A stretch of 64,000 nt of DNA from Anaeromyxobacter sp. Fw109-5 (GTDB lineage: Bacteria; Myxococcota; Myxococcia; Myxococcales; Anaeromyxobacteraceae). Within the stretch, counting starts at the first letter, position 1; every line of letters begins with the position of its first letter. Positions 2,751 to 11,798 of the stretch are shown piece by piece. The notes under the pieces were generated by a model. The model did not search any database. It saw nothing but the letters and a program-made list of their open reading frames with translations, and was not told the DNA's origin. The position numbers and the translations under genes were made by a program. Location: the NCBI RefSeq assembly GCF_000017505.1, contig NC_009675.1, forward strand, positions 1,240,001 to 1,304,000, given 5' to 3'.

Positions 2751-3878
2751 TCAAACGAGCTTCCGGACCTTGCGCGCGTTGACGCCGAACGCGTCGAGGA
2801 AGCTGCGCACGACCTCGTCGCGCAGCCGCTTGCGGGCGGCGACGGAGAGGCCCTTCATCGGCAGCCGGGCCCCCGCCATGGTCCCATGCCCGCCGGCCGA
2901 GCCGCCCTTCGCCTCGATCACCTCGCGGATGAGCCTGCCGGCGTTCATCCGCCGGTCGCCGGTGCGGACCGAGAAGTAGAGCTGGTCCTCGTACTCGGCG
3001 AAGGCGAGCGACCAGCGCATGCCCTCGAGGTACATGAAGCGCTCGGCGATCTCCGCGACCATGTCGGGCGTGTAGATCTCGCCGAGGTCGCAGATCACGA
3101 CCTCGTCCTCGTACACGTGGGCCTTCTCGATCGCCACGTGGTAGAGGCGGAAGTAGTCCTCGGGGAGCTTCGGGTGCTCGATGTCGCCGAGGGCGTCCTT
3201 GTCCGCCATCGGGAAGAGCCAGAGGTACGCCTCGACGTCCTGGTCCGTGGTCTGCCGGCCGAGGTCGCGCGTGTCCGCCTTGATCCCGTAGAAGAGCGCG
3301 GTCGCCAGATCGGGCGGCATCTTCAGGCCGCTCGCGCGGAAGTACTCCGCGAGCACGGTCGACGTGGCGCCCAGGGGACCGCCGACGTCCGCGATGGGCG
3401 CGAGGTGCGAGTCGGGCCGCTCCGGGTGGTGATCGATGACGACGTCCGGGAAGTGGCGCGCGGGCAGCGAGTGGTTTCCCTGCTCCGGCTGGGTGTCGAC
3501 CATGCAGATGAGGTCGTACTCGTCGAACACCACGCGCGAGATGGGGACCACCGGCAGCTTGAGCACGCGGATCAGCGCCCGGTTCTCGGCGCGGCCCACG
3601 ATGCCGCCGTAGGCGACGATGGCCTCGACGCCCGCGAGCTTGTCGAGGAGGTAGGCGAGCGCGACGCCCGCCGCGATGGAGTCGGGATCCGGGTTGTCGT
3701 GGGTGAGGATGAGCCCCCGCTTGTGGGAGCGGGCGTACTCGATCAGCCGATCGAGCTTCGCCTTCGTGCCCGCGACGTGGCGCGGGTAGAGCGACATCCG
3801 CGTGGAGCGGACCGGTGGCCGCGCGCGCGATCGCGCGGGCTCTTCGTTCGGGTGGCGCATGGGATTGGGTGCCTTCAT
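2751..3878 (-). CDS. DHH-family phosphoesterase (NrnA/RecJ-like)
   Basis: 375 aa with the DHH/DHHA1 architecture of nanoRNases, cyclic dinucleotide phosphodiesterases and exopolyphosphatases. Motifs: DNPDPDS (61-67), MVDTQ (127-130, metal Asp 128), IDHHPE (DHH at 149-151), KADTRDL, and the C-terminal DHHA1 glycine motif GGSAGGHGTMAGA. The ATG at 3878 overlaps the endonuclease IV stop (ATGA), pointing to translational coupling and a shared nucleic-acid role. The first ~27 residues are arginine-rich and poorly conserved in appearance. A second start at 3797 (MSLYPRHV) would give 348 aa starting at the conserved region. The substrate is not decided by sequence. Confidence 0.85.
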   Translation of the reverse strand: MKAPNPMRHPNEEPARSRARPPVRSTRMSLYPRHVAGTKAKLDRLIEYARSHKRGLILTHDNPDPDSIAAGVALAYLLDKLAGVEAIVAYGGIVGRAENRALIRVLKLPVVPISRVVFDEYDLICMVDTQPEQGNHSLPARHFPDVVIDHHPERPDSHLAPIADVGGPLGATSTVLAEYFRASGLKMPPDLATALFYGIKADTRDLGRQTTDQDVEAYLWLFPMADKDALGDIEHPKLPEDYFRLYHVAIEKAHVYEDEVVICDLGEIYTPDMVAEIAERFMYLEGMRWSLAFAEYEDQLYFSVRTGDRRMNAGRLIREVIEAKGGSAGGHGTMAGARLPMKGLSVAARKRLRDEVVRSFLDAFGVNARKVRKLV

Positions 3879-4705
3879 CGGCGTCGCACGAGGCCGCGGA
3901 GCACCTCGATGTTCTCCTTCCAGCGCGATTCGGTCTCCACGAACCCGGGCAGCTCCGCGAACCGGGCGTCGTTCACGAGGAAGCGAAACGGGGTGATCCC
4001 CATCGCGCCCTCTCCGATGTGCTCGTGCCGGTCGACCCGGCACCCGAGCGGCTTCTTCGAGTCGTTGAGGTGGAACGCGCGGACGTTCGCGAGGCCGACC
4101 ACCCGGTCGAGCTCCTCGATCGTGCGGTGATAGCCCGCCTCGTGGGTGATGTCGTAGCCGGCCGCGAACACGTGGCAGGTGTCGACGCAGACGCCGACGC
4201 GCCGGCGCTTGGCGGCCGGGACGGCGTCGCGGATGGCCGCGACGTGCTCGAAGCGCCAGCCGAGGCTGCTCCCCTGGCCGGCGGTGGTCTCGACGAGGAG
4301 CCGCGCCTTCCCGGGCACCGCGTCCAGCGCCCGCTCCATCGCCTCGGCGACGAGCCGGATCCCCTCGGCCTCGTCGCAGTGGCTGCCCGGGTGGAAGATC
4401 AGGGACGGGATGCCGAGCGCCTCGCAGCGGCCGAGCTCGTCGGCGAGGCCGGCCCAGCTCTTGCGACGGATGTCGGCGTCCTCGGAGCAGCAGTTGATGA
4501 GGTAGGAGGAGTGGGCCGCGGTGGGCAGCTTCGTCCGCTTCGCCTCGCCCTTGAAGCGGGCGATCTCCTCGGCCTCGAGAGGCTTCGCCGCCCACCCCCG
4601 CGCGTTGCGGGTGAAGATCTGTAGGCAGTCCGCCCCGTCCGCCTCGGCGCGGGTGAAGGCGGTCGAGACTCCGCCGGCGATGCCTTCATGGGCTCCCAGG
4701 AGCAT
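3875..4705 (-). CDS. nfo: Endonuclease IV (AP endonuclease)
   Basis: 276 aa TIM-barrel enzyme of the Nfo family, which cuts 5' of abasic sites in base excision repair. The zinc-ligand blocks are all present: HSSYLIN, HPGSH, LVETTAGQGSSLG, CVDTCHVFAAGYD, FHLNDSKKPLG and DRHEHIGEG. I chose the ATG at 4705 (MLLGAHEG) because family members begin two to four residues before the GAH motif, and because a TATAGA -10-like box (4722-4717) overlaps the other ATG at 4717. The gene overlaps the DHH phosphoesterase by 4 nt. Its leader carries a 9-bp perfect hairpin (4757-4778). Confidence 0.93.
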   Translation of the reverse strand: MLLGAHEGIAGGVSTAFTRAEADGADCLQIFTRNARGWAAKPLEAEEIARFKGEAKRTKLPTAAHSSYLINCCSEDADIRRKSWAGLADELGRCEALGIPSLIFHPGSHCDEAEGIRLVAEAMERALDAVPGKARLLVETTAGQGSSLGWRFEHVAAIRDAVPAAKRRRVGVCVDTCHVFAAGYDITHEAGYHRTIEELDRVVGLANVRAFHLNDSKKPLGCRVDRHEHIGEGAMGITPFRFLVNDARFAELPGFVETESRWKENIEVLRGLVRRR

Positions 4706-4860
4706 ACGGGCGCGCATCTATACAATAGGCGGACGCCACCCCGCCATGCTCGCTCCTTCCGCCCCGCGGGGGGCGGAAAGCCCAAGAAACGCGCACGCTT
4801 GTCCGTCGTGCGAGCCCGCGCTGGAGCGCGCAGGGGCACGCTGCATGACCCTAGATGACG

Positions 4861-4895
4861 AAAAAGCACCCGTCCGGAGCGACTCGGACGGGTGC
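4861..4895 (-). terminator. Rho-independent terminator of the Fic gene
   Basis: Perfect 11-bp stem GCACCCGTCCG / CGGACGGGTGC (4866-4876 with 4885-4895) and an 8-nt loop. On the minus strand it is followed by TTTTT (4865-4861). It lies 32 nt past the Fic stop codon and separates it from nfo. Confidence 0.85.
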
Positions 4896-4926
4896 CATTT
4901 TGTCGCGGGAGGCGCTGCTCGACCGC

Positions 4927-5691
4927 TCAGCGAGCGGCCTTGCGGGTCCTCATGCTCGCGCCAGCGAAGTGCTTCTCCGCCTGGGTGAGTGCGTTGTCGA
5001 GCGCCTCGATCGACAGGTCCCGCAGCGAGGACTCGGTGAGCCGGAGCGACTCGTAGTAGCGCTGCCGATCCGTCGAGTGGACGATGAGCAGGAGCGGGTA
5101 GCCGGCGTGCACGAGGAGCAGGTTCGCGAGCAGGCGGGCGATGCGGCCGGACTGATCGGTGTACGGGAACACCTGCATGAACCCGTGCTGCAGGCGCGCG
5201 ATCTGCTGGACGGGGTGGAGGTGGCGGAACTCCGGGGACTCCGTCGCCTCGAGCACCTTCTCGAGCAGCGCGGGGATCTTGGCGGGCTGCGCGATCTCAT
5301 GGAAGTACGCCCGGTGAAGGGGCATGTCCTTGCGGAAGTCGGGCGGTGTCTTCTCGGGCCCGCCGCAGAGCGTCTCGTTGAGCCGCTTCACCAGCGCCAC
5401 GGTGAGCTTGGGCCTCTTCGCCTTCGCCTCCTCGCGGGCGAGGTCGAGCGCCGTCTTGTGGTTCCGCAGCGCGGTGAGGGCGGAGACGAACGTCGCGTCG
5501 GCGAGCGGCTGGTTCGCGAGCGCCGTGGCGAGCTCCTGGGGCGTGTAGACGACGCCCTCGAGCGCGTTCTCGTGGTACAGCCACGACAGCTCGTACTTCT
5601 GGAGGAAGTCCGCCGCCAAGTCCGGAGCGGCGCGCATCCGGTCGGCGAGGTCCTCCATGCGATCGTCGATGTCGACGTATCGGGTCCGCAT
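4927..5691 (-). CDS. Fic-domain protein with degenerate active site
   Basis: 254 aa, mostly alpha-helical, with a recognisable Fic fold. An inhibitory-helix-like YHENALEG lies near residues 40-47, and the core segment reads FPYTDQSGRIAR (175-186). Active Fic proteins carry HPFxDGNGRxxR. Here the catalytic His is Phe175, the second aromatic is Tyr, and G-N becomes Q-S, while D179, G182, R183 and R186 remain. The inhibitory motif (S/T)xxxE(G/N) has Glu in place of Ser/Thr. Classical AMP transfer is therefore unlikely. It may be a regulator or a binding protein, or do different chemistry. The start at 5691 has GAGGAG 8 nt upstream. A longer frame from 5736 is possible but has no better site. Confidence 0.75.
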   Translation of the reverse strand: MRTRYVDIDDRMEDLADRMRAAPDLAADFLQKYELSWLYHENALEGVVYTPQELATALANQPLADATFVSALTALRNHKTALDLAREEAKAKRPKLTVALVKRLNETLCGGPEKTPPDFRKDMPLHRAYFHEIAQPAKIPALLEKVLEATESPEFRHLHPVQQIARLQHGFMQVFPYTDQSGRIARLLANLLLVHAGYPLLLIVHSTDRQRYYESLRLTESSLRDLSIEALDNALTQAEKHFAGASMRTRKAAR

Positions 5692-5775
5692 CTTTCGTGC
5701 TCCTCGAGCCCCGGCGGTCCTCGCGGGGAACCTCACCCGGTGACCAGCCTCAAGTTCATGTTTTCTGGGGTGATT

Positions 5776-5791
5776 CTCAGGTCATCCTGAG
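5776..5791. promoter_or_regulatory. inverted repeat in the Fic leader, possible operator
   Basis: CTCAGG-TCAT-CCTGAG, a perfect 6-bp inverted repeat with a 4-nt gap. It lies just downstream of the predicted start site of the Fic promoter. It could bind a repressor or form a small RNA hairpin. There is no direct evidence for either. Confidence 0.35.
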
Positions 5792-5805
5792 CGGAAACGG
5801 GGCGC

Positions 5806-5835
5806 AATCTAGCCGAACGCTTCGCGAATCGTCAA
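5806..5835 (-). promoter_or_regulatory. predicted sigma-70 promoter of the Fic gene
   Basis: -35 TTGACG (5835-5830), 18-bp spacer, -10 TAGATT (5811-5806) on the minus strand, giving a start near 5799 and a leader of ~108 nt before the Fic ATG. Confidence 0.55.
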
Positions 5836-6023
5836 CCGCCTAGCGCCTCCGGCCGATGAAACGGGCACTCGCACGGTTTTGTTCCACCCGCTCGCCTGGT
5901 CGTGTGGGCCCGGGGCGGCCGAGCGTAGATGTCGCCGAGGTTTCGCGGAGTTGCGTCGTGGGCGGCAGGACACGCCGCGTCGATGGCGTCCCCGCGGGCA
6001 TGAACGAGCGAGGGCGCGCGCCC
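5836..6023. other. intergenic, no gene recognised
   Basis: Part of the 417-bp gap between the Fic gene and ilvE. Short frames here are arginine/proline-rich translations of GC-rich DNA with no ribosome-binding site. Apart from the Fic promoter on one side and the ilvE terminator on the other I see nothing functional. Confidence 0.5.
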
Positions 6024-6063
6024 CAAAAGGGAAACGCCGCCGGCGCCCGAGCGCTCGGCGGCG
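6024..6063 (-). terminator. probable terminator of ilvE
   Basis: On the minus strand CGCCGCCG (6063-6056) pairs with CGGCGGCG (6042-6035), with smaller pairing inside the loop. It is followed by TTTCCCTTTT. It lies ~45 nt past the ilvE stop. The T-run is interrupted, so termination strength is uncertain. Confidence 0.6.
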
Positions 6064-6108
6064 TGTGCCCTCGCGCGGTACCCCGAGGGCCCGCGAGAGC
6101 CGTACGAC

Positions 6109-7023
6109 TCAGTACGTCGTGAGCCACTCCCGGTAGCGCTGCTCCTCGCCGCGCACGGCCCGGAAGAAGGTGTCCTGGATCTTCTTGGTCACCGGCCCCG
6201 GCTCGCCCCGCCCGATGCGGCGGCCGTCCACCTCGCGCACCGGGGTGACCTCGGCGGCGGTGCCGGTCATGAAGAGCTCGTCGGCGAGGTACATGGTGTC
6301 CCGCGTGAACTTCTCCTCGCGGATGGGGACGCCCAGGTCGCGCGCGATGCGCAGCACGGTGTCCCGCGTGATGCCGGCGAGGATGGGAGAGGAGAGCGAC
6401 GGCGTCTGGAGCACGCCGTTCTTCACGATGAAGAGATTCTCGCCCGAGCCCTCCGCGACGTAGCCCTCGGTGTCGAGGAGGATCGCCTCGTCGAACCCGC
6501 TCAGCGCCGCCTCGCGGTTCGCGAGGAACGAGTTCACGTACTGGCCCGAGATCTTGGCGCGGACCAGGTTCACGTTCACGTGCATGCGCGTGAAGGAGGA
6601 GACCTTCGCGCGGATGCCGCGCTTCAGCCCGTCCTCGGACAGGTACGCGCCCCAGGGCCAGGCGGCGACCATCACCTGCACCGGGTTCACCGCGCCGACG
6701 CCCATGGACCCCGCGCCGAAGAAGGCGAGCGGGCGGAGGTAGCCGGCGTCGAGCTTGTTCGCCTTGAGCGTCGCGATGCACGCCTGCTCGATCTGCTCGA
6801 TCGAGTACGGGATCTCCATCAGCACGATGTGCGCGGAGTCGAAGAGCCGCTGGACGTGCTCGCGCAGGCGGAATACGGCGGGGCGGCCGTCGGCGCCGCG
6901 GTAGGCGCGGATGCCCTCGAACACGCCGATGCCGTAGTGCAGCGCGTGCGTGAGGGTGTGGACCTTCGCCTCGTCGAAGGCGACCAGCTTGCCGTCGAGC
7001 CAGATCTCGTCCGCCTTGATCAT
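6109..7023 (-). CDS. ilvE: Branched-chain amino acid aminotransferase
   Basis: 304 aa, the usual length of class IV aminotransferases that interconvert Ile, Leu and Val with their 2-oxo acids. Seen: [12 protein letters not shown] (30-41), PLP lysine K157 in [33 protein letters not shown] and the phosphate-binding [13 protein letters not shown] chose the ATG at 7023 (MIKADEIW), which has a purine-rich GGGAAGG site. An in-frame ATG at 7062 lies inside the predicted -10 box and cannot be the start if that promoter is used. The gene stands alone with its own promoter and terminator. Confidence 0.93.
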
Positions 7024-7057
7024 TCCGGCCTTCCCGCTTTCTAGGGTGTGGGCGTCG

Positions 7058-7086
7058 AACATGCCCCACGGCGGCAGGGGTTTCAA
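7058..7086 (-). promoter_or_regulatory. predicted sigma-70 promoter of ilvE
   Basis: -35 TTGAAA (7086-7081), 17-bp spacer, -10 CATGTT (7063-7058) on the minus strand, giving a start near 7051 and a ~28-nt leader. It overlaps an alternative upstream ATG and so helps fix the ilvE start. Confidence 0.5.
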
Positions 7087-7100
7087 GGGCCGGGCGCCCC

Positions 7101-8528
7101 TCACGCGGGAAGGGGAGGGAAGCGCCGGCACATCCGCGAGATGAACGGCATGTCCGGGTGGAGCTCCGCCTTGCCCGCCTGGATGGCGCGCTGGAGCGCG
7201 CGCTCGGACGGCACGACGTCGATCGGCGAGAGCACCCGCTGGAACGATCGGTGGTGGTGCACGAAGGGGCGGTTGCGCGCGACGTTCTGCGCGGCGAGCT
7301 GCTCGAGGCCGAACCACAGCGGCTGCGTGAGCTTGGGCCCGAAGCCTTCGAGCGCCAGCACGAAGGCGTTGCGGGTGCCGATCCCGCCGCGCTGGACCGT
7401 GGCCCACGCCTCGCGGGCGGGGAGGTTGTCCACGAGGCCGCCGTCCACCAGCCGGAACACGTCGTGCCGCTCGAACAGCTCCGCGAGCAGCCCGTGCATG
7501 CGCTCGTCCTGGCGCAGGACGTCGTAGTGGATGACGCCCGGCAGCGCGGACGAGAAGCCGACCGCGTCGATGGCGTCGAAGGCGCGGGTGGCGTCGTCCG
7601 CGCCGAGGTAGACGCGCGCGAAGCGATCGCGCTGCGCGATGAGCTCGCCCACCGCCTCCAGGGCCTCCGACATCATCCGCTTCACGACGTGCGGGCGGGG
7701 GGCGCGGCCGTGCAGGTCGAGGAGGTGCTCGTAGTAGCTGGGATCGCGGGGCAGCGCGCCGTTGCGGATGCCGGTCACCGCGACCAGCAGCGGGATGGCG
7801 AGCTGGCCGAGGGTGAGCGGGTGGCCGTCGGGCCCGCGCAGGAACTCCCCGATGGCGGCGCGCAGGTAGAGCCGCATCGCGGCGGGCAGGCCGTAGCGCG
7901 AGCCGGTCTGGAGGAACCGGAAGATCGTGCGGAACGACAGCGAGCGCATCGCCTCGTCCACGTCGCCGGCCTGCCAGCGGATGCGGCGCGCGCGGAACAG
8001 CAGGAGCACCGCGCCCATGCTCGTGCCGGCGAGGAGCCGCGGCACGAGGCCGTACTGCTCGAGGAGGGCGAACGCCCCGAGGTAGGACCAGGTCACGCCC
8101 CCGCCGCCCCCGGCGACGAGGACGAGCGCCTTCTCGCAGACCTCGCGGTCGATGGCCTCCGGCGTCACCCGGCCCGCCAGCGCCGCCGCGGCCCGCCCGC
8201 GCCACGCGCGCGCGTGGAGCGCGAGGTCGGGGACGACGCGGCACAGCTCGGCGCGGTCCGGTCCGCGCGCGCCGAGCAGGGCGGGGAGCGCGAGCTCGCG
8301 GACGTCCTCGCGGAACGGCGCGAGCAGGCCGCCGAGGTCGACGTCCGAGCCGTCCGGCGCGCGGACGACCGTGGTCCGGGCGAGGTTCAGCGCGTAGCGG
8401 AGGGCGGCCTCGTCCTGCTCCGACAGCCAGGGAGGGCTGGAGACCACGTCGCGGACGAGGGCGGCCTCGGCGTCCGAGAAGGGGCGCAGCTCCTGGTGCA
8501 GGGCGTCGAGCGGTTCGTCGGGGGGCAA
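7101..8528 (-). CDS. Patatin-like phospholipase
   Basis: About 475 aa. The patatin catalytic elements are clear: glycine-rich oxyanion loop AGGGGGVTW, nucleophile elbow GTSMGA (Ser near residue 170), and the dyad aspartate in [10 protein letters not shown]. These enzymes hydrolyse acyl chains from lipids. No signal peptide is visible, so it is probably cytosolic or peripheral. About 130 residues of helical sequence precede the catalytic domain. No ATG or GTG lies in a sensible place. I chose TTG 8528, nine nt downstream of a TACAAT box, consistent with a near-leaderless mRNA. It starts 36 nt after glnE and could also be co-transcribed. Confidence 0.8.
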
Positions 8529-8537
8529 GCCGGCCGG

Positions 8538-8543
8538 ATTGTA
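8538..8543 (-). promoter_or_regulatory. -10-like box of the patatin gene (near-leaderless)
   Basis: TACAAT on the minus strand, 9 nt before the TTG start at 8528. No good -35 is seen (TAGGTG at the matching position, inside the end of glnE). It belongs to the group of closely placed -10 boxes in this window. Confidence 0.35.
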
Positions 8544-8563
8544 GACGAGACGGCTCGCCCCAC

Positions 8564-11500
8564 CTATCGCACCACGGCGTCGAACGCGGCGCGCACCGCC
8601 GCGGTGGTCCGCGCGTAGTCCGCGAGGAAGCGATCGCCGGGCGACGGGCCGTAGTACCCGAGCCGGCGCGCGAGCTGCTGCAGCGCCGGGCCGCGCTCGG
8701 GGAGGTGATCGATGGCGAAGTCGTGGACGATGCGGAGCCGAAGCTCCACGCGCCGCAGGAACTCGTACCCGCGCGCGAGCGCCTCGTGGTCCGCTTCGCG
8801 CAGGAGCCCGTGGGCGCGGAGCCGCTCGAGCGCCAGGGGCGTCGAGCCGGTGCGGATCTGGGGGTGGTCGTATCCGTGCAGGAGCTGGAGGAACTGCGCC
8901 GCGAACTCGACGTCCACGAGGCCGCCGTGGCCGGTCTTGGGGTTCTTCCCCCGCGAGGCCTCCTTCGCGAGCTCGGTCTCCATCCGCTCCCGCATGCGGC
9001 GGATCTCGGCCGCGAGCGGGGCGCGGTCCTCGCGGCGCCCGTACACCACCGGCAGGATCACCTGCGCCTCGATCTCGACGAACGGCGCGGGGTCGCCCGC
9101 GACGTGCCTCGCCCGCAGGAGCGCCTGCCGCTCCCAGAGCTGGCTGCGCACCTCGCCGGTCGCGCCGGCGCCCGCGCCGCCCGGGAGCGCCTCGCCCATG
9201 TGGTAGCGCTTGAACCCCTCCGTGCCGATGACGAGCGCGCCCTGGTTGCCCGAGGGGCGGAGCCGCGTGTCGATGGCGAACAGGCGCCCCTCGCGCAGGG
9301 GCATCTGCAGGAACGACATGAAGCGCTGGGCGAGCCGCGCGTAGGCGGCGTGGTGCTCGCCGCCGCCCCCGCGGTAGAGGAACACGAGGTCGAGATCGGA
9401 GTGGTAGCCGAGCTCGCGCCCGCCGAGCTTGCCCATCCCCACCACGCAGAGCCGCTGGGGCGGCAGCGCGCCCTTCGCGCGCGCCTCCCCCTCGGCCAGC
9501 TCCAGGCAGCGCTCGAGGCACACCTCGGCGAGGTCCGAGAGCTGGCGCGCGATGACGGGCACGTCGATCGTGCCCGCGATGTCGTGGATCGCGACGCGCA
9601 GCACCTCCTCGTTCTTGAAGCGCCTGAGCTCGCCGAGCTGGCGCTCGAGGAGATCGTCGGGCGCGAGGTCCGCGGGGATCGCCGCGAGCCGCTCCTCGAG
9701 ATCGGCGCGGAAGCGCGCGACGTCCTTCTCGAGCAGGACCTGATCCTGCCGGAGCAGCATGTCGATGAGCTCGGGGTGGCGCAGGAAGCGCTTCGAGAGG
9801 AAGTCGGAGGTGCCGAACAGCGACAGGAGCAGCCGCGCCACCCGCCGGTGCTCGGCGAGCATGCGGAAGTAGGGCTCGGGGTTCGCGAGCGCCGCCGCGA
9901 AGTCGGCGAGGTGCGAGAGGGCCTGGTCGGGGTCGGGCGTGCCGAGCGCGTCGCCGAGGAGCGCGACGGCGGCGGCGGGATCGCCGTGCGGCGAGAAGGG
10001 GGTGCGCCGCCGCGCCATCGCGTCGATGGCGGCGAGCACGCGGTCCGGGTCCATGAGGCCGCGCCGCGCGGCGATCTCGGCGCGGCGCTCCCGCGGGACC
10101 TCCGGGTCGGCGAGGAGCGCGAGCTCGGGGTCGAGGGGGGGCGCCTCCTCGGCGGCCGTCCCCAGCAGCCCGGCGAACAGCGCCGCCACCCGCTCCCGGT
10201 GCGCCGCCAGGGCCGCCTCGAACGCCGCCTCCGTGGCGAAGCCCATGGCGCGCGCGAGGCCGAGCCGCTCGCCGGCGGGGGGGAGCCGGTGCGTCTGCGC
10301 GCCCTCCACCATCTGGACGCGGTGCTCCGCGCGCCGCAGGAAGAGGTAGGCGTCCGCGAGCCCGTCGCCGTCCCTGGCCGGGACCACGCCCGCGAAGATG
10401 AGCCGCTCGAGGGCGGGGAGCACCGCGCGCTCCCGCAGCGGCTTCCCCTCCTGCCGCCCTCCGTGCAGCAGCTGCAGCGCCGACACGAAGAACTCCGCCT
10501 CGCGGATGCCGCCCTTGCCCAGCTTCAGGTCGTCCTTCCCCTCCGCGCCGGCGCGCGCGTCGATGCGCGCCTTCATCGCCTGGATCTCGGCGAGCACGTC
10601 GAGGTCCAGGCTGCGCCGCCAGACGAACGGCTCGAGCTGGCGCATCAGCTCCTCGCCCGCGGCGAGATCCCCCGCGGCGGGCCGCGCCTTCACGAGCGCG
10701 TTCCGCTCCCAGGTGCGCCCGAACGACTGGTAGTAGAGCTCGGCCGCGCGGACGCTGTTCACGATGGGCCCGTTCTGCCCGTCGGGCCGCAGGTTCAGGT
10801 CCACGCGGAAGACGAACCCGTCCTCGGTCGGCTTGGCGATCGCCTCGGTCACGAGCTCCGCGAGCTTCGCGTAGTAGGCGAAGTGCGTGACCGGCTTCTC
10901 GCCGCGCGTCTGGCCGTCCCGCTCGTAGACGTAGACGAGGTCCACGTCGGACGAGAAGTTGAGCTCGCGCGCGCCGAGCTTGCCCATGGCGATCGCGCAG
11001 AAGCCCGCGCCCGGCTCGCGGCCCTCCATCCCCTCGGGGGGCCCGTGCCTCGTGCGCAGCCGCCGGTCGTGGAAGCGGATCGCCGCGTCGAGGCAGGCGG
11101 TGGCGAGGGAGGAGAGCTCGGCGGTCACCTCCTTCACGCGCGCGCGCCCGAGATCGCGCAGCGCGATCCGGACGATCTCCCGGGCGCGGACGCGGCGCAG
11201 GAGGCTCAGGAAGCCGGGGACGTCCTCCGGGTCGAGCCGGCGCACCGCGCGGGCGAGCAGCCCGCGCAGGTCGGCCTCGGCGCGCGGCTGGTCCACGAAC
11301 GGGGAGCGGGCGGCGCGGCGCAGGAGGCGCGGATCGCGGGCGAGGAGCGCGGCGACCATGCGCGACGAGCCGGCGAGCAGCACGAGGGCCTGGAGCAGGT
11401 CGCGCTCGGCGGGGAGCTCGCCCGCGCCGTCCACGTAGCGCTCGACGCCGGCGAGGGCGAGGTCGGGATCGGCGGACAGCCGGCACGCCGCGAGCACCTC

Positions 11501-11608
11501 CTCGAACCGGGCGGGGAAGCGGCTTCGGAGGCGCGCCAGGCGCTCTTGGGAGTCGGGCGCGCGCGGCTCCTCCGGCCCGAGGCCGGGGATCGCGTGGGCG
11601 GGGCGCAT
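8564..11608 (-). CDS. glnE: Bifunctional glutamine synthetase adenylyltransferase/deadenylylase
   Basis: 1014 aa. Two nucleotidyltransferase domains are visible, each with its signature: [17 protein letters not shown] near residue 207 (N-terminal, de-adenylylating) and [18 protein letters not shown] near 724 (C-terminal, adenylylating). A helical PII-response and linker region lies between them. The enzyme adjusts glutamine synthetase activity to nitrogen status. The chosen ATG (11608) has GAGGG 5 nt upstream; another ATG at 11620 is in frame. It lies downstream of a sigma-54 activator of the NtrC class, a link to nitrogen control that is suggestive only. No glnA or glnB is nearby. Confidence 0.93.
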
Positions 11609-11798
11609 GGGGACCCTCATGGCGCCGCCCACTTGCGTTGAGCGTCGCGAGGCGCACGGAGCCGTCGCCGAGCGGGGCACACGACGACCGAGCAGCGCAG
11701 GCGTGCCTGGAAGGCACGTCGAGCAGCGCAGGGAGGAGTCTGCCCCGCGCAGGCAGGCAGCGTGCGCCGCAGCAGCTCAATGCGGGTGGGTGTCGCCA

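Follow-up and report, generated by a model that had tools for sequence, protein, structure and literature searches.

A phylum-wide family of predicted Fic-fold proteins without the catalytic histidine in the Myxococcota

What purpose might a Fic protein serve once the histidine of its active site has gone? Fic proteins have been studied as writers, and sometimes as erasers, of AMPylation, and the question is raised by a gene within a 64,000-nucleotide stretch of the Anaeromyxobacter sp. Fw109-5 genome (positions 1,240,001 to 1,304,000 of contig NC_009675.1), referred to here as the window. The gene encodes a protein with phenylalanine at the place of the catalytic histidine and, as judged by comparison of its relatives, it belongs to a phylum-wide, histidine-less variant of this known fold. 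The parts of the gene on which the argument turns are these:

4927..5691, reverse strand: the histidine-less Fic-fold gene, 254 amino acids plus stop, with an ATG start at 5691.
5554..5586, reverse strand: end of the inhibitory helix, SWLYHENALEG, residues 36-46; E45 corresponds to FICD Glu234, and the usual Ser/Thr four residues earlier is Asp/Glu.
5275..5337, reverse strand: residues 119-139, the flap segment; the motif of the family here is RKDMPLHRxYFH(D/E)I.
5134..5169, reverse strand: degenerate FIC motif FPYTDQSGRIAR, residues 175-186; the F175 codon (5167-5169) occupies the place of the catalytic His.
5053..5079, reverse strand: HSTDRQRYY, residues 205-213; H205 is family-specific, and R209, Y212 and Y213 are common with canonical Fic proteins.

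The window protein matches the Pfam Fic family (PF02661) at 45.8 bits, where the cut-off is 24, and neither it nor four other members of its family gave a match over cut-off in NCBIfam. An in-frame GTG at 5736 is the less likely start, since the alignment with close orthologues begins at the MR(T/S)RY that they have in common. When a profile of 36 orthologues was aligned with FICD, 234 positions (3-236 of 256) were paired with an E-value of 3e-35, and counting along the printed alignment sets F175 on His363, P176 on Pro364, D179 on Asp367, S181 on Asn369, G182 on Gly370, R183 on Arg371, R186 on Arg374 and E45 on Glu234. The preliminary description of this DNA had proposed that the catalytic histidine is replaced by phenylalanine and the asparagine by serine, and both substitutions are borne out, not for this gene alone but as a property common to the whole family. 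Across 141 distinct aligned sequences, taken from 78 genomes with a match, the window and 80 named loci, the catalytic-histidine column holds Phe in 98, Tyr in 41, His in one (L135) and Ser in one (L149), whilst the asparagine column holds Ser in 122, Thr in 15, Asn in three and Ala in one, so that Asn is lost in 138. Since 139 of the 141 orthologues carry Phe or Tyr at the catalytic column, the replacement is not a sequencing slip, and this aromatic preference does not look like drift. An alternative alignment with an intact HPF motif was also sought in the window protein and none was found; the only other HP is HPVQQ at residue 159, and because this pairs with HPVE of FICD, no alternative alignment gives back the motif. 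The AMPylase signature HPFx(D/E)GN(G/K)RxxR is therefore broken in the window protein at F175 and S181.

Copies of the gene occur throughout the phylum. With the window protein as the single query, a match was obtained in 39 of 41 close relatives, the remaining two being genomes 66% and 74% complete, and at an E-value of 1e-8 in 134 genomes of a phylum-wide sample of 146. Two of these matches were weak and were set aside: what the family profile hits in one genome (G096) is a protein with a canonical HPFVDGNGR motif, and in the other (G092) the profile yields nothing at 1e-10. This leaves a strong orthologue in 132 of the 146, and when the other 14 genomes were searched with the family profile, no copy was detected. 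Counting only genomes with completeness of 90% or more and contamination of 5% or less, 120 of 126 possess an orthologue. In the table of 41 genomes the strong copy looks to be single, since any extra match is either a fragment of that gene or reaches an E-value of 1.8e-9 or weaker. Close orthologues of the window protein include those of two named Anaeromyxobacter species (71 and 70% identity). A pattern scan of 84,980 species returned 375 stretches, of which 329 were confirmed, and the titles of the best 80 of these 329 name myxobacteria, Myxococcota, Myxococcales and its families, Deltaproteobacteria, Proteobacteria or an uncultured bacterium; going by these best 80, the family is likely restricted to the phylum, and it is from the same titles that the phylum is identified as Myxococcota. 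A phage- or plasmid-borne Fic module was also considered and is ruled out: the gene is chromosomal, the window being part of a 5.28-Mb single-contig genome; the scan of viral contigs produced 107 pattern matches and no confirmed relative; the 58 plasmid records matched by the window protein are distant (<31% identity in the 20 rows listed), with HPF in all eight of the 58 that were examined; and the two phage records share 26-40% identity. Literature searches of titles and abstract openings, with most subscription papers and all preprints outside their coverage, returned no paper on this family.

The loss of the histidine is accompanied by strict conservation elsewhere. H40, G46, R120, Y129, H131, P176, G182, R186, R209 and Y212 are invariant in all 141 sequences, and P124 and H126 (140 each), Y213 (136), R127 (135), Q210 (134), H205 and F130 (131 each) are nearly so. 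The inhibitory-glutamate position, E45, is Glu in 127 and Asp in 14 and is thus acidic throughout. Of the class II motif [S/T]xxxE[G/N], the E45-G46 pair is present, with Gly in 141/141, and the Ser/Thr position is Asp or Glu in 141/141. It had further been claimed that the structural Asp, Gly and Arg of the core motif remain; across the family this stands for G182 and R186 but not for the aspartate. At that position, the metal-ligand column, the commonest seven residues are Glu (57), Asp (28), Arg (23), Lys (23), Gln (4), Ser (2) and Asn (1), which amounts to an acid in 85 sequences, Lys or Arg in 46 and another residue in 10; where the acid has gone (56/141) the replacement is thus basic in 46 of 56. 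The first motif glycine is lost in 126 (His 62, Asn 27, Gly 15, and others), and the R1 column is Lys in 103, Arg in 27 and another residue in 11.

Canonical relatives allow these positions to be sorted. From a comparison set of 24 loci, 21 matched the family profile at 1e-3, eight of them Fic genes carried on plasmids and 13 found in genomes belonging to the phylum; the Escherichia coli fic region (L190) and two further loci (L206 and L207) did not match at that threshold. All 21 contain the motif pattern, 20 of them beginning HPF or HPY and one (L198) PPF. When 81 family rows were set against the seven closest canonical relatives, E45, G46, E53, R120, H131, P176, G182, R186, N190, L193, R209, Y212 and Y213 were common to both; the family had lost, among others, the catalytic His, the Asn, the first Gly, two residues of the inhibitory motif (its Ser and the Asn following its Glu), a flap Gly and one flap Pro; and it had newly fixed P124, H126, R127, Y129, F130, I133, H205, Q210 and hydrophobic residues at positions 44, 48 and 57. 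Within the family, the mean frequency of the commonest residue is 0.81 in the flap (119-139) against 0.56 in the rest of residues 20-225, compared with 0.70 and 0.70 in the seven canonical relatives, a small and less diverse set. Orthologues of one family (f4, e.g. L072:6009-6842) carry some 20 extra residues, rich in Arg and Glu, directly before the flap.

In a midpoint-rooted tree of 58 family rows (41 from the main alignment and 17 divergent ones; L135 was left out) and 12 of the 21 canonical relatives, a branch of length 1.34, supported at 100/99, separates the family from the canonical relatives; among the rows that drew a long-branch warning are L100, L068 and three of the canonical ones. 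Provided that the root falls outside the family, the histidine would have been lost once, on or before the family stem, and the lone His and the lone Ser would be single later changes. On the canonical side of this tree lies L193 (G033:C3:235200-237400), a 610-residue frame with His kept and Ser for Asn (HPFAVGSGRMGR).

The structure prediction that the preliminary description had proposed yielded a Fic fold with FICD as its best match. The AlphaFold2 model, built on 81 alignment rows, has a predicted local distance difference test score (pLDDT) of 89.3 and a predicted template-modelling score of 0.88, the pLDDT falling to 69 and 65 in blocks 111-120 and 121-130, which include the start of the flap. 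FICD structures are the best solved matches (4u0u, Z 28.5, root-mean-square deviation 2.4 Å over 244 residues; the FICD:BiP-AMP complex 7b7z, Z 28.1), followed further down by BT_2513 (Z 25.1), AvrB (11.3) and BepC (11.1). The predicted fold is that of a class II-like, FICD-like Fic protein.

Taken alone, the loss of motif residues could be read as decay of the gene. That reading is contradicted by conservation: the gene is kept in 132 of 146 genomes, new residues have become fixed, and the ratio of non-synonymous to synonymous substitution rates, obtained by Nei-Gojobori counting in a script, is 0.04-0.20 in nine close pairs of the ten compared, the tenth and more distant pair (L001/L004, proteins about 71% identical) giving 0.47. 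We regard decay as having next to no chance of being correct, in agreement with the earlier statement that the gene is not decaying, and the same retention, selection and newly fixed residues support the suggestion that it may have a non-AMPylating role, the lack of AMP transfer being itself deduced from the residues.

For that role, we give about an even chance to a pocket-keeping Fic-fold binding protein without AMP transfer. In AMPylating Fic proteins the histidine is thought to be the base, the Asp or Glu to take part in Mg binding, the loop Asn to hold the loop and two arginines to hold the phosphates (PMC8401265). With the general base lost and the loop Asn nearly always lost, the family would no longer transfer AMP, whilst a positively charged phosphate-binding pocket, the acid of the inhibitory helix and a remodelled, conserved flap would have been kept under selection. 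The pocket could then accommodate a nucleotide, some other ligand with a phosphate group or a side chain modified with AMP, and its state would be signalled by the conserved flap to a single conserved partner. BepC has a Lys where the Mg ligand would be, and this Lys, instead of Mg, contacts the ATP phosphates (PMC7842960); that the family retains two ways of keeping phosphate binding, an acid or Lys/Arg, together with loss of the histidine in 140 of 141, points to a binding role. The BepC FIC domain can also act by protein-protein contact, even after mutation of its motif or exchange of its flap (PMC7842960). In the present family, by contrast, conservation is higher in the flap than elsewhere in the protein, which suggests one conserved partner or ligand, and the conserved flap sequence combined with low model confidence would fit a part that becomes ordered on binding.

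The argument about the pocket rests on the alignment with FICD, and FICD also supplies its closest parallel. There the inhibitory Glu234 pairs with Arg374 (PMC6826200); in deAMPylation Glu234 places the attacking water, with His363 as the putative acid. Replacement of His363 abolishes deAMPylation, and the H363A protein and AMPylated BiP stay together in a long-lived complex (PMC8373988). By analogy, the family, lacking the histidine, with Glu or Asp at the inhibitory position and the equivalent of Arg374 kept, has a trap-like combination by nature and is perhaps a natural analogue of the H363A substrate trap. An extension of this idea, which we hold to be improbable, is that it acts as a natural reader of AMPylation: a domain that once wrote or erased the mark would, having lost its histidine, bind AMP-modified protein stably, as FICD H363A binds BiP-AMP, and would have been kept in most of the phylum.

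Several observations weigh against a binding protein of this kind. R127 (135/141) and H205 (131/141) are not universal, and one locus (L135:7980-8735) has His at the catalytic column, the sole case of 141 (HPFARHSGKLAR), without the Asn and without the acid. Counting along the alignment places FICD Asn407, the adenine contact, at residue 220, whose column is variable; given this and the loss of Asn369 in 138 of 141, adenine nucleotides may not bind. The gene is absent from six of the 126 good-quality genomes and so is not indispensable everywhere. The kept acid, R186 and the fixed histidines could equally form a catalytic set.

It is this last possibility that underlies the strongest rival, a FICD-type hydrolase with another acid, in which E45 would place the water, R186 and the basic motif residues would hold the phosphate, and H131, H126 or H205 would donate the proton in place of His363. 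The required residues are in place, with Glu (127) or Asp (14) at the E45 position, R186 and H131 in 141/141 and H126 in 140/141, and FICD provides the precedent of a water positioned by Glu234 with His363 as putative acid (PMC8373988). Yet deAMPylation by FICD is gone once His363 is replaced (PMC8373988), holding of Mg in the manner of Asp367 is not possible in the same way for the 56 of 141 members without Asp or Glu, and H131 is found also in canonical Fic proteins (6/7) and so is not specific to a new chemistry; we consider this hydrolase unlikely, if less so than the alternatives that follow. A transferase using another donor would resemble AvrB, a glycosyltransferase of the Fido fold that attaches rhamnose (PMC10866546) and that appears among the structural matches (Z 11.3), but the model lies far nearer FICD (Z 28.5), and we think such an activity rather improbable. 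An AMPylase still active with another base appears more doubtful again, indeed very unlikely: G2 and R2 are kept and an acidic Mg ligand persists in 85 of 141, but the acid is missing from 56 and the loop Asn from 138, and replacing the histidine removed activity or toxicity in FICD (PMC8373988) and in Campylobacter Fic2 and Fic3 (PMC5651007).

The preferred reading, a Fic-fold binding protein, may be set beside known systems. With FICD/HYPE (PDB 4u0u, 6i7g and 7b7z) the family has in common the inhibitory-helix Glu, R2, G2, the motif Pro and the R..YY stretch, but it differs in having no His363, in the near-universal loss of Asn369, in Asp/Glu for the inhibitory Ser/Thr and in a different flap motif; the 254-residue chain aligns from FICD residue 191 and, as to the tetratricopeptide repeat region that precedes the Fic core, has no Pfam match to that repeat. 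Among the Bep proteins of Bartonella, a quarter of FIC domains are without the histidine. BepC resembles the family in its departures from the FIC motif, with Lys for the Mg ligand, and acts via GEF-H1 even when the motif is mutated or the flap exchanged (PMC7842960, PMC8401265). However, BepC keeps its histidine, and the Beps, effectors that a single genus injects, have additional domains, whereas the family consists of stand-alone chromosomal proteins, found phylum-wide, with a conserved flap. AvrB has the Fido fold without the residues for the usual Fic activity (PMC7842960), as does the family, although its match in structure is much weaker (Z 11.3 against 28.5 for FICD) and the superfamily fold alone is common to the two. 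Campylobacter fetus Fic2 likewise has a degenerate core motif in a functional gene but, in contrast to the family, keeps the catalytic histidine, which is needed for its toxicity (PMC5651007).

The surroundings of the gene contribute less. For the promoter and the terminator of the preliminary description, candidate sites can be recognised, both as consensus matches only:

5806..5835, reverse strand: promoter-like site, TTGACG-18-TAGATT.
4865..4896, reverse strand: terminator-like hairpin and T-run past the stop, readable on the other strand too.

Between 4000 and 7000 there is one promoter-like site where shuffled sequences give 0.0, and four terminator-like sites where 0.9 are expected. Two further Pfam Fic genes are present in the same genome: one (L205, G000:C1:686163-686477) has a 423-residue frame and a canonical motif, HPFADGNGRVGR, and the other (L206, 3241209-3241454) has a 212-residue frame in which the motif patterns gave nothing.

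The order glnE, patatin, ilvE, sometimes an AAA+ gene, fic, nfo and DHH (window 2751-11780, loci L072-L179) recurs in several related families. Counted over 140 loci, some of which represent a genome twice (e.g. L084/L101 and L085/L111) and whose lengths vary, so that the counts are lower bounds, relatives of the neighbours in the window were found for ilvE in at least 44, nfo in at least 32 and glnE in at least 20. The counted neighbours (glnE, ilvE, nfo and the AAA+ gene) all run in the direction of fic. Pfam supports the names class IV aminotransferase, patatin, AAA, DHH and AP-endonuclease on relatives of the neighbours, whilst glnE is named by recognition only. GlnE is an AMP-transferring enzyme of another fold, and its nearness to fic may be chance. 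In other taxonomic orders the neighbours of fic differ, and the neighbours give no function for fic.

The AAA+ ATPase gene, of about 444 codons (L072:4536-5867 and 29 other loci), lies upstream of fic in the same direction at 30 of the 140 loci; four of the 30 were scored as downstream where Fic open reading frames called from a far start overlap the AAA+ frame. The N-terminal part of its product looks like a winged helix, from a reading of the consensus. Of the 146 genomes, 72 have a strong copy (at least 54% identity); coordinates compared by eye put it beside fic in 61 of them and on another contig in the other 11. In the taxonomic family to which the window belongs, none of 24 genomes has it at an E-value of 1e-20, and this absence rules it out as a required partner.

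In the work cited here, the non-catalytic Fic protein is BepC, an injected Bartonella effector that its authors call unique (PMC7842960). If the reading favoured here is true, the Fic fold can be fixed for another purpose, its catalytic base having been lost before the family spread and the protein having then been kept phylum-wide with a new conserved flap.
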